A stretch of DNA of 64,000 nucleotides from an uncultured Butyrivibrio sp. (lineage in GTDB: Bacteria; Bacillota; Clostridia; Lachnospirales; Lachnospiraceae), in assembly GCA_946623755.1 (NCBI GenBank), contig CAMORK010000002.1, positions 1-64,000 on the forward strand, written 5' to 3'. The position numbers were made by a program, and so were the translations under genes. This document shows, one piece after another, positions 30,611 through 42,026 of the stretch; positions within the stretch are counted from its first letter, which is position 1, and each line of letters starts with the position of its first letter. The notes under the pieces were generated by a model, which saw nothing but the letters and a program-made list of their open reading frames with translations, made no database searches and was not told the origin of the DNA.

Positions 30611-30670
30611 AAAAAACACTCCCTTTTGGTAACATTTACTTTACAGAAACGTTTTTTCAAAAAGGAGTGT
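30610..30670 (-). terminator. Long-loop terminator after the surface-protein block
   Basis: On the minus strand, ACACTCCTTTTTG...CCAAAAGGGAGTGT followed by TTTTTTATTG sits 39 bases past the stop of the gene at 30709. The loop is about 25-30 bases, longer than usual. Confidence 0.6.
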
Positions 30671-30708
30671 CGTCATGTTGTAGTATTGTATGAAATTATC
30701 TGTTATTT

Positions 30709-31095
30709 TCACTCAATTTCAGTAGTGCCATCGTCATAGGTTATGACCCAGTAACCTTTGCCTGTACCGCAGTCTTCATGATACTGCTTGTCTACTATCA
30801 CCGGTTCCTTCTGCGCAGGTTTGTCATCAAGGGCAACAGAATCGTTGTCAATATAAGTAATCTTATAATATGAAGCGGGTTTCATTTCAGTTTCTGCCTG
30901 GACATTTTCAGTATCCGGATTTTCATATTCTATCGGCTGTTCGGTTACAGTAACCACCGGTATATTGTCATCAGATACCATCCCGGACAGAAAATGTTTA
31001 TATGCCGGCATCAGAGAATACAGCACTATGTTGAAAATAAACACACATGATATTGTCCCTGCAAATATGAATGTAAATGTCAGTACTTTCCTCAT
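30709..31095 (-). CDS. Small membrane-anchored hypothetical protein
   Basis: 128 residues, not recognised. An N-terminal helix (about 5-29) is followed by an extracytoplasmic Glu/Pro/Thr-rich stretch and a small C-terminal domain containing HEDCGTGKGYWVITYDDGTTEIE. GAGG lies before ATG. It is the last gene of the surface block with the two transglutaminase-like proteins, 12 bases after the LRR-transglutaminase gene. Confidence 0.7.
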   Translation of the reverse strand: MRKVLTFTFIFAGTISCVFIFNIVLYSLMPAYKHFLSGMVSDDNIPVVTVTEQPIEYENPDTENVQAETEMKPASYYKITYIDNDSVALDDKPAQKEPVIVDKQYHEDCGTGKGYWVITYDDGTTEIE

Positions 31096-31107
31096 ATCTT
31101 TTCCTCT

Positions 31108-32082
31108 TTAATAATTTACAGGATAGCTGGCTTCTTTTTTTATAGGCCCGGCCGGATAACTCTCGTAGGTCTGCTTGTAATATCCGCTTCCCTTCGCTCT
31201 TTGCATCTCAGCGTCAAATACATACCAGTTTCTTCCAACCTTGACTTCCGTCCAGGCATGTGGTGTTCTGCCGCCAAGAGCCGATGTCACTGTTCCGGTA
31301 CATACCATGGCATCGTAACCAAGGCCTTTGGCTATATATGCAAATGCAGCAGCATATCCGTAGCAGTTGCCTTTATGTTCGCTCATGGTATTCATGGCAT
31401 AGGAACCGGTCCAGTCTCCACTTGGAACTTCCATGCTTCTTTCATATACCACTGATTTTGCAAGATAATCAAAAGAAGCTTCAAGCTGCTCAGCCCGGGT
31501 CATGGAAAATGTGGTGCAAACGTTGACCAGATCTGCTGCCATCTTCATCAACTCTGAAGGAGGATCGACAATATCACCGTTTTCCAGAACCCATTTCACA
31601 GAGCCTGTCGAGTGGATAAAATGCTCTCCCGGAGCATCCCATTCCATACCATTTACAGATCCGTTGTCCTCTACTACTGCTACAATCTCCCTGCGAAGCT
31701 TTTCAGGCACCCCCGAGAGTGCGTTCTTACTTATTGAAACTACAGTGTTGGGAATATATGATGCCGAAAGAGCCGGTGGATAACACACAAGCTCTGTCTG
31801 CATCTTGTCGTAAAGGCATCCGCTGTAAGATGAATAAAACGGGTTATTCTTACTTACTGTAATGCACTTTAAGTGTCCCATTCCTCTGAAGGCCGTTGAT
31901 GTGATCTCATATACATCACTTCCTATATGAATAGAAGTGATACTGTGATCAGGAAAACTTGAGTAATCTAGCACTTCATAATCACCGGCGCTTACTGTAA
32001 GGGAATTTGTACCGAGCATCAACAGAATCAAAATAAGCGATATTAATTTATGGCCATTTCTGAGGATTTTTGTCAGTATCAT
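31108..32082 (-). CDS. Secreted LRR (BspA-type) plus transglutaminase-like protein
   Basis: About 324 residues. The signal peptide or N-terminal helix ends near LTVSAG. A short BspA-type leucine-rich region (ITSIHIGSDVYEITSTAF, ...IPNTVVSISKNALSG) covers about 45-125. A transglutaminase-like core has GNCYGYAAAF (candidate Cys), RTPHAWTEV (His) and WYVFDAEM (Asp), the usual catalytic triad order. Such domains act as proteases, transglutaminases or peptidases at the cell surface; which one applies here cannot be told. The start is uncertain: Met at 32082 is preferred to 32118, which would overlap the upstream gene by 71 bases. Confidence 0.82.
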   Translation of the reverse strand: MILTKILRNGHKLISLILILLMLGTNSLTVSAGDYEVLDYSSFPDHSITSIHIGSDVYEITSTAFRGMGHLKCITVSKNNPFYSSYSGCLYDKMQTELVCYPPALSASYIPNTVVSISKNALSGVPEKLRREIVAVVEDNGSVNGMEWDAPGEHFIHSTGSVKWVLENGDIVDPPSELMKMAADLVNVCTTFSMTRAEQLEASFDYLAKSVVYERSMEVPSGDWTGSYAMNTMSEHKGNCYGYAAAFAYIAKGLGYDAMVCTGTVTSALGGRTPHAWTEVKVGRNWYVFDAEMQRAKGSGYYKQTYESYPAGPIKKEASYPVNY

Positions 32083-33193
32083 AATAGGTGTCTGTCTGCC
32101 CTCCCATAGGATTAGCATTACTATGTATCGGTTGTCCTGTTAACTGATAGTCACCATCAACATATCTCGGTCTGGTGTTAATAATGTCACTTTCAAATGC
32201 ATATCCGTAATATTCTCTGAAGTCCTGCCTCTTGCCACCCCAGTTGGGATGTACTCCGTATCCTGCCCAGGATTTTATAGGATCTGCATAGGCCTCATGG
32301 TTGTCACAGACTATCTGGCACCATTGATCTTCCCATTTATTTGCATTTACATGGACCCATTTAAGCGGTGGGTATTCTGCCTTAATTCCTGCCAGAAAGT
32401 CCGCATACCATAATTGATCAAGATAATCAAGGATAAGGCCCAAAGCTCTGGTTGATCCGGCACATGTATACTCATGGCCGATAAAAACACCATATGCAGT
32501 TCTGTATAGCTTGTTGTTTGTACTTTCTACCTCATCCCGAGTCAGTTCCTTACCGGCTGCACAATATGCGTTTACAATACCTGTGGCATAGGCCACCATC
32601 TCTATCTGAGTTCCGCTGCCAAAATTATTAACACGATTATATACATGTCTTGCAAGCTGAAGGGCAACGCTCCTTGCCTCATTTTCCTGACGCCTGTTCA
32701 TTCCACCGTTACTGTGGATCTCATCGGGAATAACCGACATTCCGTCCTTCTGCGTTTGTGTCTTTTGATATCTCGGAACAACATATTCAAATTTACTTCT
32801 GGAAGTTCTTGCCGCGGGATTTATAACCATGCTGGCTTCACGGTTCTCATCGAAACCGTGATCTACATAATGCTGATATAACGCAAACGGATTAGCTCCG
32901 ATACCCGGATCTTCTCTCAAATCCTGGTAATTCAGGAAATAGCATAGTGCATTGAAATTTTTGCCATTATATGTTTTGTTAAATTTTTCAAGCGCAAGCA
33001 TTGTATCTTCATCAATTTCTACGCTTGTTGTTGTGGGATCCTTGACTGTGGTTCCGTTAGGAGTCGGTGTTGGAAATGTCACGTTAGCTGTAGCATAAGA
33101 CCTGAAAGGAAACAGTAAAGTCAGAATTAAAACCCCAAGCACAATACTCTCAGCTGCTTTAGCAATTCTTGTAAGTGTAGATCTGCAGAACAT
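32048..33193 (-). CDS. Secreted transglutaminase-like superfamily protein
   Basis: 381 residues from the Met at 33193, where GGAGG lies six bases upstream; the track start at 33262 falls in a terminator. An N-terminal signal peptide or helix ends near SYATA and is followed by a Thr/Pro linker. A central segment HEYTCAGSTRALGLILDYL and KWVHVNANKWEDQWCQIVCD...YADP recalls the Cys-His-Asp core of transglutaminase-like proteins in a divergent form. The region ALYQHYVDHGFDENREAS resembles a short repeat found in other surface proteins of this group. It overlaps the next gene by about 35 bases. Enzyme function is not established. Confidence 0.7.
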   Translation of the reverse strand: MFCRSTLTRIAKAAESIVLGVLILTLLFPFRSYATANVTFPTPTPNGTTVKDPTTTSVEIDEDTMLALEKFNKTYNGKNFNALCYFLNYQDLREDPGIGANPFALYQHYVDHGFDENREASMVINPAARTSRSKFEYVVPRYQKTQTQKDGMSVIPDEIHSNGGMNRRQENEARSVALQLARHVYNRVNNFGSGTQIEMVAYATGIVNAYCAAGKELTRDEVESTNNKLYRTAYGVFIGHEYTCAGSTRALGLILDYLDQLWYADFLAGIKAEYPPLKWVHVNANKWEDQWCQIVCDNHEAYADPIKSWAGYGVHPNWGGKRQDFREYYGYAFESDIINTRPRYVDGDYQLTGQPIHSNANPMGGQTDTYYDTDKNPQKWP

Positions 33194-33233
33194 TTTTCGC
33201 CTCCGTCTAAAGATTTTTTGGCTAAAAAACACA

Positions 33234-33277
33234 ACAAAAAAAGCCAACAAGATTTCATACATTAATCTTATCGGCTT
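33234..33277 (-). terminator. Terminator after the repeat-bearing surface protein
   Basis: On the minus strand, AAGCCGATAAGATT/AATCTTGTTGGCTT pairs over 14 bp (two G-T) with a 9-base loop and is followed by TTTTTTTG. It separates the gene at 33298 from the transglutaminase-like genes. Confidence 0.8.
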
Positions 33278-33297
33278 AATTTTATGAATTGTTTATA

Positions 33298-35202
33298 CTA
33301 ATTTATATGTTTTCCGTTTTTTAAAACAAATATCGCACATACAAGACATAACAGCAATATAAACAGTCTTGCGTGCTCCGGTCTTCCGGAATCTGAGGTT
33401 TCTGACCTTCTGGCTCCCAGAACCTGAGGCTTAGCACTGTAAGTTGTTGCTGCCTCCAGACTGTTTGGGACTACATTACCGGTTGTGGCTGTTAATCCGG
33501 AATCTGTCTGCGTCACGGATACGATCGTAGAAGCATATGAGATTGCTACCCCATCACTGTTATCTGATGCTTTGACATTGCTTCCTGTATTCTCAGACTC
33601 TCCGTTTTTTGTATCTACAAGAATAAGTTGTCCGTTAACTTTGCTGATATTATAAAGATAATTAACGGAATTACCATTCTCATCAACTATATCAATACCG
33701 GCTATCTCATTGACCGACCTGCCGGCCCCGGTCTGACTACCGTTTATTACTACTCTCTCTATTCTGTGTCCTTCCATGAGTGAGCCGGAAGTGATTTCAA
33801 AGCTGTCATCCGTAAGGGTCTGTCCATCATCATTTTTGACTGTCGTACCTGCTTCTATAGTGATGTCTTTTGCCTTGATGCTTACGGTTCCCGTATTAGG
33901 AAGTACATTGAACTTGGCCGGAAGGATGTTTCCTGCAGAATCCCTGATTATGAAATCTGCCGCCGTCCTTAGCGGATGGTCCTCTGCATCATAGAAGACC
34001 ACTTCCTGTGAATCTCCGGGATTGGTAACCCTGGCAAAGGCCTTGACTACATTTATCCAGAAATCCTGACCGCGATAAGAAAACTCTGTGCCAAGTCCCA
34101 CATCAGCGTAGGACCTGGTTCCAATAAACCTTCCGTAGCACTCATACAGATAACCTATGATAGGATTTCCTGTCTCTTTGTCATGAATTACGATTTCAAA
34201 ACCGCCTACTATATGCTCTTTGCCGTCAAACTCGATTTCCCTGCACTCTTTACCGTCTTCCAGAAAAAGAGCTCTGATCTCAATCGTAACATCCGGGATC
34301 GGATCCTCTGCGGGAACTTCTGCCGAGTCTTGAGCCGTGTCCTGCACCGGATTTTGAATAAGTTCTTCCTGCTGCACCGGCACTTTAGAAATATCAGTCT
34401 GATCTGAGCCCGAAGTCTTCCCAGTATCTGCAGTTGTCCCAGTATCCTTTGGTTGCCCGGGAAGTGTAGACTCTCCGGAGTCAGCTGTCTGTCCGGCCTT
34501 CTCGGTATCTGTCTTTTTATCAGCCTGACCCGGCTTCTCAGCATCTACCGGTTTCTCAGTCTGACCGGACTTTTCAGCATCTTCAGGCTTATCAATCTCT
34601 CCGGGTTCTTCCGGATTATCAGGACTATCTGCTTCTCCGGGTTCTTCCGGATCATCAGCTGTTTCCTGCGTTCTTTCTCTTATAACGCCGTCAACATGGA
34701 TACCAACGTCAGCATTAGGATAACTTGTTGACGCAGATTTTATCACATACCATACCACATAGTGTCTGGACGGATCAAAATCTTCAACCTCGCCTCTGAT
34801 ATCCGATACTTGCGGGAGTTTATCCAGCATCTGTGAAACCCCGTTTGATGCTGTGAATCCGTCTGTCAAAAGAGATTCATCTGAGCCGTCAATCGCCCCG
34901 GTACTCGGAGAGTACCTAAATGATGACAGCGCACCATTCACTCTGATAGCTGATGAATACAAGTCTGTTGGGTAGTTTCCGGGTTCTGCCGGTATATCTG
35001 CCCCAATGCCTCTGCCTCTGATAAAGAAGCATACGTCCAGGTATTCCTCTTTATCATCAGTATCATCAGCCTGAATCTCTTCCTGCTCGTTATTTAATTC
35101 TTCTGCACCGGCAATAATGGTCATGCCCCTGTTCCCCAGCACGGCAATAAAGACTATCAATGCCATCAGAACGCTAAGTGCGCTTCCGGCAAAGCTTTTC
35201 AT
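33298..35202 (-). CDS. Large secreted surface protein with 12-residue repeats
   Basis: 634 residues from the Met at 35202 (GGAGTG upstream). A signal peptide (about 1-32) is followed by a globular domain (about 50-180, with YVVWYVIKSAS and VGIHVDGVI) and then a repeat region of five 12-residue units rich in Glu, Lys, Gln, Pro and Gly. Further beta-rich Ig-like regions follow. A C-terminal hydrophobic helix is preceded by VLGARRSETSDSG and followed by KNGKHIN. No classical LPXTG motif is present; a non-canonical anchor is possible. Likely cell-wall or membrane associated. Function unknown. Confidence 0.75.
   Translation of the reverse strand: MKSFAGSALSVLMALIVFIAVLGNRGMTIIAGAEELNNEQEEIQADDTDDKEEYLDVCFFIRGRGIGADIPAEPGNYPTDLYSSAIRVNGALSSFRYSPSTGAIDGSDESLLTDGFTASNGVSQMLDKLPQVSDIRGEVEDFDPSRHYVVWYVIKSASTSYPNADVGIHVDGVIRERTQETADDPEEPGEADSPDNPEEPGEIDKPEDAEKSGQTEKPVDAEKPGQADKKTDTEKAGQTADSGESTLPGQPKDTGTTADTGKTSGSDQTDISKVPVQQEELIQNPVQDTAQDSAEVPAEDPIPDVTIEIRALFLEDGKECREIEFDGKEHIVGGFEIVIHDKETGNPIIGYLYECYGRFIGTRSYADVGLGTEFSYRGQDFWINVVKAFARVTNPGDSQEVVFYDAEDHPLRTAADFIIRDSAGNILPAKFNVLPNTGTVSIKAKDITIEAGTTVKNDDGQTLTDDSFEITSGSLMEGHRIERVVINGSQTGAGRSVNEIAGIDIVDENGNSVNYLYNISKVNGQLILVDTKNGESENTGSNVKASDNSDGVAISYASTIVSVTQTDSGLTATTGNVVPNSLEAATTYSAKPQVLGARRSETSDSGRPEHARLFILLLCLVCAIFVLKNGKHIN
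34471..34650 (-). repeat. Five 36-bp imperfect tandem repeats in the surface protein
   Basis: Encodes units of the form PEEPGEADSPDN, PEEPGEIDKPED, AEKSGQTEKPVD, AEKPGQADKKTD, TEKAGQTADSGE. The first two are acidic; the last three carry Gln and Lys side by side. Confidence 0.85.
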
Positions 35203-35299
35203 AACGAATTTCACTCCCATGATCTATATAAAACATACTGAAATATCATAACAAATAATCTATCATATCACTCATCATAATATGGCAATTTTTTGTTTA

Positions 35300-40532: not shown

Positions 40533-42026
40533 TCATTTATCATCATCAAGATCAAGGAACTCAAACTCAAAATCATCTTCATCTCCGATGAAGTTCTTAG
40601 CCTTACGTCTTGGTGCCTCTTCTCTTCTTGACTGCTCTGCTTCAGCTCTTTCAGGTCTTCTTGTAGAGCGCTCCTGTGCATCATCTCTTACAGGCCTTCT
40701 TGCAGGTCTGTCTTCAGGATTTCTCCTTGACTGACGTTCCTGACGTTCTTCATCGTACTCTGCTGATCTTCTTGGTCTTGCAGGCCTCTCCTCAGGCTCT
40801 TCTTCTCTTCTTGCCCTTGAAGATCTTACATTCTCTTCTCTTGAAGCTCTTACATTCTCTTCTCTTGAAGGTCTTACTGTTCTCTCTTCAGCAGCCTGCC
40901 TTCTAACAGGTCTGCGCTCTTCCTCTTCATCATCATCGTCATCACGTGCTCTTCTTCTGGAAGTCTGTGAATAACGATCATACTCTTCATTTTCGTCCTC
41001 ATCATCTTCATAATAGAGTGAATCGCGAAGCTTAAGAGCAAGAAGGATAAGTCCTACTACAAGTGCAGCAATTACTACTGCAAGGATGATAAGAATTGTC
41101 TTGTAATTGTTATTTGATTTAACGAGCTTGCTAACCTCATCACTGCTCTTAGCTGCATCAATGAGTTCATTAACCTTTACTCTGTAACCCTCAATGTTGT
41201 CATAGAGGTACCATACTGCGCCGTTTTCACCGTCCTCAAGGTATACAAGTGAATAATGTCCGTCACCTGCATCACTGGCTGATTCCGTCTGCTGGCTCTC
41301 CTCCGGCTGCTCCTCTGCAGGAGCCTCTGCGTTCTCTCCCTCGCCCTCTACGGCTTCAGATGCCTCACCACCCTCAGGAGTCTCTGTAGTCTCTGCAGGA
41401 GCTGCCTCACTAACCTCTAAAAGGTCACTTCTGATAAATCCTGTCTTATTGCTGCTTCCAAATGTAACCTGATACCATGTCTTGTTGTCTGAATCTGTTG
41501 CCTCGCCTGTAATTGTAACGGTATCGCCTTTTGTTACCTTACCAACTGAATTGTAAGCTGTACCTGCACCTTCACGAACATTTACGCTGTCCTGAGTGAT
41601 AGTTGCGGGTCTTGCTTCTGTAGCTGTTGCTGTTGTTGCAGGGAGTGACGCTGCAGCAGCATTGCTCTCTGTAGTATTGGTGGTTGTAGTTGTTGTAGTC
41701 TCAGCTTTGGCCGATGAATCTCCGGACTTCTTGATAAGATCACTTCTTACATAGCCTTTTTCGGTCTTGTTGACACGAATTTTGTACCACACATATCCCG
41801 AAGCATCTGTTGCCTCATCGATGATCTCTACAGTATCTCCCTCTCTTAAACTGGAAATCTGAGATGCTGTTGTGCTGGCTTCTGATCTTACCTTAACATT
41901 AGATGTAGCAACAGTTCCGGTAGTCTCTGTATAGGCAAACGCCTGTACTCCCATTGACACGAATATAGTCGCTGATAATACGGCTGAAAGGCCGAGCGAC
42001 ATCAGTCTCTTTCCTATTCTTTTCAT
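40533..42026 (-). CDS. SH3b-repeat membrane protein with Arg/Glu-rich cytoplasmic tail
   Basis: 497 residues. The signal peptide ends near VQAFA. Two bacterial SH3 domains follow (about 35-100 and 138-205, each with VRSEAS/VREGAG, WY and GY/FIRSDL), then an acidic Glu/Ala linker, a membrane helix (about 310-333) and a 160-residue tail packed with Arg, Glu and Asp. The outer part would bind cell-wall peptides, the tail would face the cytoplasm. The tail contains SREENVR repeats. It is encoded just after purD but is unlikely to act in purine synthesis. Such a wall-sensing protein with a highly charged inner tail is not a known family to me. Confidence 0.82.
   Translation of the reverse strand: MKRIGKRLMSLGLSAVLSATIFVSMGVQAFAYTETTGTVATSNVKVRSEASTTASQISSLREGDTVEIIDEATDASGYVWYKIRVNKTEKGYVRSDLIKKSGDSSAKAETTTTTTTNTTESNAAAASLPATTATATEARPATITQDSVNVREGAGTAYNSVGKVTKGDTVTITGEATDSDNKTWYQVTFGSSNKTGFIRSDLLEVSEAAPAETTETPEGGEASEAVEGEGENAEAPAEEQPEESQQTESASDAGDGHYSLVYLEDGENGAVWYLYDNIEGYRVKVNELIDAAKSSDEVSKLVKSNNNYKTILIILAVVIAALVVGLILLALKLRDSLYYEDDEDENEEYDRYSQTSRRRARDDDDDEEEERRPVRRQAAEERTVRPSREENVRASREENVRSSRARREEEPEERPARPRRSAEYDEERQERQSRRNPEDRPARRPVRDDAQERSTRRPERAEAEQSRREEAPRRKAKNFIGDEDDFEFEFLDLDDDK
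40825..40894 (-). repeat. 24-bp direct repeats in the SH3b protein tail
   Basis: CTTACATTCTCTTCTCTTGAAG occurs twice (40825-40846 and 40849-40870) and a third degenerate copy follows; they encode SREENVRA/SREENVRS. Confidence 0.8.

Follow-up and report, generated by a model that had tools for sequence, protein, structure and literature searches.

A cell-surface gene block of Butyrivibrio with a transglutaminase-fold protein and a Cys-containing tail protein as its probable core

On its minus strand, the window (the whole stretch of 64,000 nucleotides analyzed here, from an uncultured Butyrivibrio sp.) holds four consecutive genes between 30709 and 35220. These open reading frames, here called A, B, C, and D, are flanked by radA and a gene for a sugar-binding protein. 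The explanation that we prefer, with a probability of about one half, is that the block is a cell-surface module with C and D as its core and that it is a reduced form of an envelope-acylation operon of the Lachnospiraceae. C would be an exported transglutaminase-fold cysteine enzyme that forms an acyl-enzyme at Cys252. D would be anchored in the membrane and would show a Cys-containing tail outside the cell, as a docking partner, regulator, or substrate of C. B would have a degenerate form of the transglutaminase fold and probably serve as a binding or adaptor subunit; A would be an optional surface protein. The C-D pair may have descended, or been recruited, from an operon encoding a transglutaminase-like protein, an MBOAT protein, an SGNH-AlgX acyltransferase, and the tail. 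The Butyrivibrio locus would then retain the first and last genes of that operon, with B (and A) in place of the two acyltransferases. What the analysis shows directly is the gene order, the conservation, the folds, the state of the triads, and the distribution of the tail and its fusions to SGNH proteins; that C works on or with the tail of D, that B is inactive, and that the block is linked to modification of the envelope are inferences.

Gut and rumen Clostridia commonly encode proteins with a transglutaminase fold, for most of which, to our knowledge, no substrate is known. A conserved tail partner, a recurring MBOAT-SGNH operon, and natural fusions together provide a concrete and testable candidate for such proteins.

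RESULTS AND DISCUSSION

Layout of the block

All features given below are on the minus strand unless another locus is named. Gene A (33298 to 35220) encodes an exported surface protein of 640 residues if it starts at 35220; the conserved Met7 at 35202, where the interval of an earlier note on this DNA ended, is the more likely start and would give 634 residues. Gene B (32048 to 33262) encodes an exported protein of 404 residues whose N-terminal part carries a surface repeat and whose core has a divergent transglutaminase fold. The product of gene C (31108 to 32118), also exported, has 336 residues, with a possible start at Met13, and combines a BspA-type LRR segment with a Transglut_core domain. 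Gene D (30709 to 31095) encodes 128 residues, arranged as an N-terminal membrane helix, a variable linker, and a nearly invariant C-terminal tail. The N-terminal export signals of A, B, and C were read by eye. A hairpin followed by a T run (30615 to 30671; z = -4.1) lies after D and is the likely end of the transcription unit, and a terminator-like site is found before radA. These two features suggest that radA-A-B-C-D may be a single transcription unit.

C is the intact transglutaminase-type protein

C matched the Pfam family Transglut_core (PF01841) with an E value of 2.8e-14, above the cut-off. Its AlphaFold model had a pLDDT of 89.5, and the top PDB match in Foldseek was TglA (9CRN; 5.5e-7). 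The catalytic residues, namely, the nucleophile Cys252 (31363 to 31365), His287 (31258 to 31260), and Asp302 (31213 to 31215), are all present and lie where the PF01841 superfamily has them; unlike that superfamily, C also carries an LRR-like segment. Of the 46 copies of C that aligned at these positions, 43 had an intact triad, which is also conserved across genera. The earlier note had described two secreted proteins with Cys-His-Asp cores of the transglutaminase type. For C, the export signal, the triad, and the modeled core all bear this out, and C is the only protein of the block that looks like a working transglutaminase-type enzyme.

The PDB matches of C included TglA, the pseudomurein endo-isopeptidases PeiP and PeiW, LapG, a putative cysteine protease, transglutaminases, and arylamine N-acyltransferases. 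Since these span several activities, the reaction of C is not readable from its fold. We think it more likely that C cleaves an envelope component or carries out acyl transfer on it than that it cross-links A through Gln and Lys. A narrower explanation, which we consider possible but on the unlikely side, makes C a cysteine protease or isopeptidase at the cell surface, where it would trim surface proteins or the peptides of the envelope, with the tail of D guiding or regulating it and A and B as cargo. The matches to PeiP/PeiW, LapG, and the putative cysteine protease point in this direction, as do the choline-binding-type wall repeats carried by C-type relatives, but transglutaminases and arylamine N-acyltransferases are among the fold matches as well. 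This explanation is a more specific version of the C-D module proposed above, and the two overlap.

B is probably a pseudoenzyme

B gave no transglutaminase match in Pfam or NCBIfam, its homologues from other genera gave none in Pfam either, and sequence searches of the PDB with B returned nothing useful. The earlier note had assigned B a core of the same kind as that of C. The model of B does resemble a transglutaminase-like fold, with Streptococcus pyogenes TglA as the top PDB match in Foldseek (E = 1e-3; probability, 1.00), but the TM-score to TglA was only 0.21 over the whole model; of the two models, that of B is the weaker. In the model, a helix starting at residue 267 is followed by three strands, an order that fits transglutaminases. 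When the cores of B and C were compared with hhalign, Cys267 (32462 to 32464) was paired with the catalytic Cys and Asp312 (32327 to 32329) with the catalytic His, at a low probability (13.7%; E = 0.002); the full proteins gave an unrelated alignment, and only the cores produced this pairing. The spacing of 15 residues to the final Asp is identical in B and C. The placement of Asp312 at the canonical His position is thus drawn from a weak alignment, the common spacing, and the order of the secondary structure elements.

The nucleophile position of B is Cys in 28 of 48 Butyrivibrio copies and Ser in the other 20, and it changed at least five times on the tree. Position 312 is D, Q, L, or N in all 48 copies and never His; in homologues from other genera it is His in 7 of 7. 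A standard triad, and with it a second active enzyme, was rejected for B because the canonical His position is not His and the Cys is often Ser. The second of the two proposed Cys-His-Asp cores was not confirmed, and B is probably a pseudoenzyme. This assignment is uncertain because His304 (32351 to 32353), which precedes the canonical His position by eight residues, is invariant and could substitute for the missing His. Both His304 and Asp327 were found in 48 of 48 copies and in every homologue from other genera. These two residues, the replacement of Cys267 by Ser only, and the position of residue 267 at the start of a helix, as in transglutaminases, would suit an active B with an exchangeable Cys/Ser nucleophile. 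We regard such an activity as unlikely, given that the canonical His has been lost throughout Butyrivibrio and that the Cys/Ser switch fits relaxed constraint.

The N-terminal surface repeat of B (residues 95 to 147; 32822 to 32980) follows the pattern Y.LN..DLR...G.NP..L..HYV.HG..E.R and reads YFLNYQDLR...HYVDHGF... in the window. Many other proteins of the family also carry it, either as short copies or in tandem.

D is the constant partner of C

The last 24 residues of D, YHEDCGTGKGYWVITYDDGTTEIE (30712 to 30783), are nearly invariant and contain one Cys, the invariant Cys109, in the pattern DCG...GYW.I.Y.DG. With a profile of this tail, matches were obtained in 16 other genera of the Lachnospiraceae, almost always a single one per genome. 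At 14 of the 15 other-genus loci that were fetched, a transglutaminase-like gene lay near the tail; the remaining locus ends at a contig end. In four loci from two lineages (L239, L241, L243, and L258), the tail was fused to an SGNH/AlgX protein.

In these fusions, a low-complexity spacer, which is Gln rich in L239, separates the SGNH/AlgX protein from the tail at its C terminus (L239, 11939 to 14434; L258, 2829 to 4595). Ala/Gln-rich spacers also stand directly before the tail in several genera (L187, L188, L189, L190, and L239). Gln is the donor residue for transglutaminases; this spacer is not conserved in D of Butyrivibrio.

To examine co-occurrence, we searched 79 Butyrivibrio genomes and, for B, also 24 further families of the order, and then mapped the genes. 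The conserved order in Butyrivibrio was clpC-(small gene)-radA-[A]-B-C-D-sugar-binding gene. With the window counted, B, C, and D were adjacent in 43 blocks, and A was also present in 34 of these, so that the co-occurrence in other genomes by which the earlier note proposed to check its idea was indeed found. Nine blocks had B, C, and D but no A, and in about ten genomes A was inverted. In three genomes (L156 to L158), B and C are located elsewhere without D, and it is exactly in these three that C has lost its catalytic Cys and His. Because these genomes are related, the coupled loss is possibly a single event. In all three, the B-C pair adjoins a histidine-kinase-like gene.

The co-occurrence, adjacency, and co-loss suggest that C may act on or with the tail of D, and D, rather than the Gln/Lys repeat protein A, is the constant partner of C. 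Neighborhood and co-loss of C and D are no proof of contact or catalysis. From these comparisons, C and D together make up the conserved unit, to which B would have been added in Butyrivibrio, and A is optional.

Relatives of C and D are found with acyltransferase genes in other genera

A search seeded with the catalytic domain of C recovered 33 Butyrivibrio loci, all of which had B-C-D and neither an MBOAT nor an SGNH gene. Among the 45 loci outside Butyrivibrio, an MBOAT gene was found in 31, an SGNH gene in 32, and the tail in 27, and the transglutaminase gene directly preceded the MBOAT gene in 28. The usual order there was a transglutaminase, an MBOAT protein ending in FIYFRF, an SGNH protein (Pfam ALGX/DHHW), and the tail protein. 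Both sequence and triad are conserved between C of the window and the MBOAT-linked forms. MBOAT proteins have an FXYXXF acyl-shuttle motif (PMC12148441), which the terminal FIYFRF fits. In adjoining MBOAT and SGNH/AlgX genes, the C and D relatives of other Lachnospiraceae resemble the MBOAT-SGNH acylation systems PatA/PatB and DltB/DltD (PMC12148441); unlike these systems, the block in the window has no MBOAT or SGNH gene. Other MBOAT proteins are encoded elsewhere in the genome that holds the window, and DHHW had no match in this assembly, which is 60% complete.

In 12 of the 14 C-like loci of other genera without an MBOAT gene, no tail was detected either, so it is possible that the tail goes with the acyltransferases and not with C; several of these loci are short contigs, which makes the count weak either way. 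In another member of the Lachnospiraceae (L276), the tail gene directly follows the transglutaminase gene, as in Butyrivibrio. The operon with a transglutaminase, an MBOAT protein ending in FIYFRF, an SGNH/AlgX protein, and the tail recurs in Lachnospiraceae and other Clostridia (L212, L215, L217 to L225, L231 to L234, L286 to L305, and others). A search with partial coverage of the open-access papers did not find this association of transglutaminase, tail, MBOAT, and SGNH proteins described, and literature searches on TglA and on Butyrivibrio transglutaminases returned nothing on point.

More speculatively, C-type enzymes and the Cys-containing tail could constitute a new system for peptide recognition or ligation outside the cell; the enzyme would covalently modify the tail, attach it, or be docked by it. 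Such a system would place acyltransferases at the cell surface of Lachnospiraceae and would have been reused in Butyrivibrio without the acyltransferases; we hold this to be improbable as it stands.

The block might also consist of four unrelated envelope genes inherited vertically behind radA and sharing no pathway. Its single conserved chromosomal site is what plain synteny of this kind predicts, but B-C-D stay together away from radA in one genome (G007; L160), relatives of C and D occur as pairs in differently ordered loci of other genera, and fusions of the tail to SGNH proteins exist. On this evidence, mere synteny has a low probability, and the C-D module remains the preferred explanation.

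The spacer of A does not look like a cross-linking substrate

A matched no family in Pfam. Its N-terminal domain is followed by a low-complexity spacer, by further domains, which are also found in very large proteins of Butyrivibrio, and by a C-terminal motif with a membrane helix. The spacer (residues 188 to 316; 34273 to 34659) contains the repeats in which the earlier note saw Gln and Lys placed close together. Short repeats do exist (EEPGE, EEPGE, EKSGQ, EKPGQ, and EKAGQ), the first two without Gln, as had been stated, and the spacer in the window has 10 Gln and 10 Lys. The proximity, however, was that of a shuffled sequence: in A of the window, Gln within four residues of Lys was observed 5 times, versus 4.8 expected (P = 0.57). 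Among 33 A homologues, the spacer ranged from 13 to 205 residues and was variably acidic, Pro rich, or Ser rich, with a Gln content of 0 to 16% and often no Gln at all. Gln near Lys was usually absent, including from the spacer of the closest homologue (L122), and no conserved Gln or Lys site was found in these 33 spacers. The Gln/Lys pairing was rejected as a substrate signature because its proximity equals that of shuffled sequence and the spacer is hypervariable.

The transglutaminase of Streptomyces mobaraensis has its own fold. The cross-linking cascade of that organism (PMC4757070) resembles the Butyrivibrio block in combining a secreted transglutaminase with secreted protein partners and differs from it in that no conserved Gln/Lys substrate was found at the block. 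The earlier note's model, in which B and C cross-link A through its Gln/Lys repeats into a self-contained surface mesh, is very unlikely, for although the C triad is intact, A adjoins B-C-D in most blocks, and the spacer in the window contains both residues, A is dispensable while B-C-D stay, many homologues have no Gln in the spacer, and B has no canonical His and often no Cys. What survives of that model is the presence of secreted transglutaminase-fold proteins beside a surface protein and their strong co-occurrence; the two active enzymes and the role of A as substrate do not.

At its C terminus, A has the conserved, sorting-signal-like motif VLGARRSETSD followed by a membrane helix (33301 to 33426), and Gly602, Arg604, and Thr608 are invariant. 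A resembles sortase-sorted proteins in its export signal, modular domains, variable spacer, and C-terminal motif with a helix, and differs from them in that the motif is VLGARRxxTxD, not LPXTG, and its anchoring is putative. The VLGARRxxTxD motif and membrane helix that end A and its homologues are a possible non-LPXTG sorting signal. Elsewhere in the window, a tandem repeat with a 24-base unit in 2.9 copies was found at 40816 to 40885.
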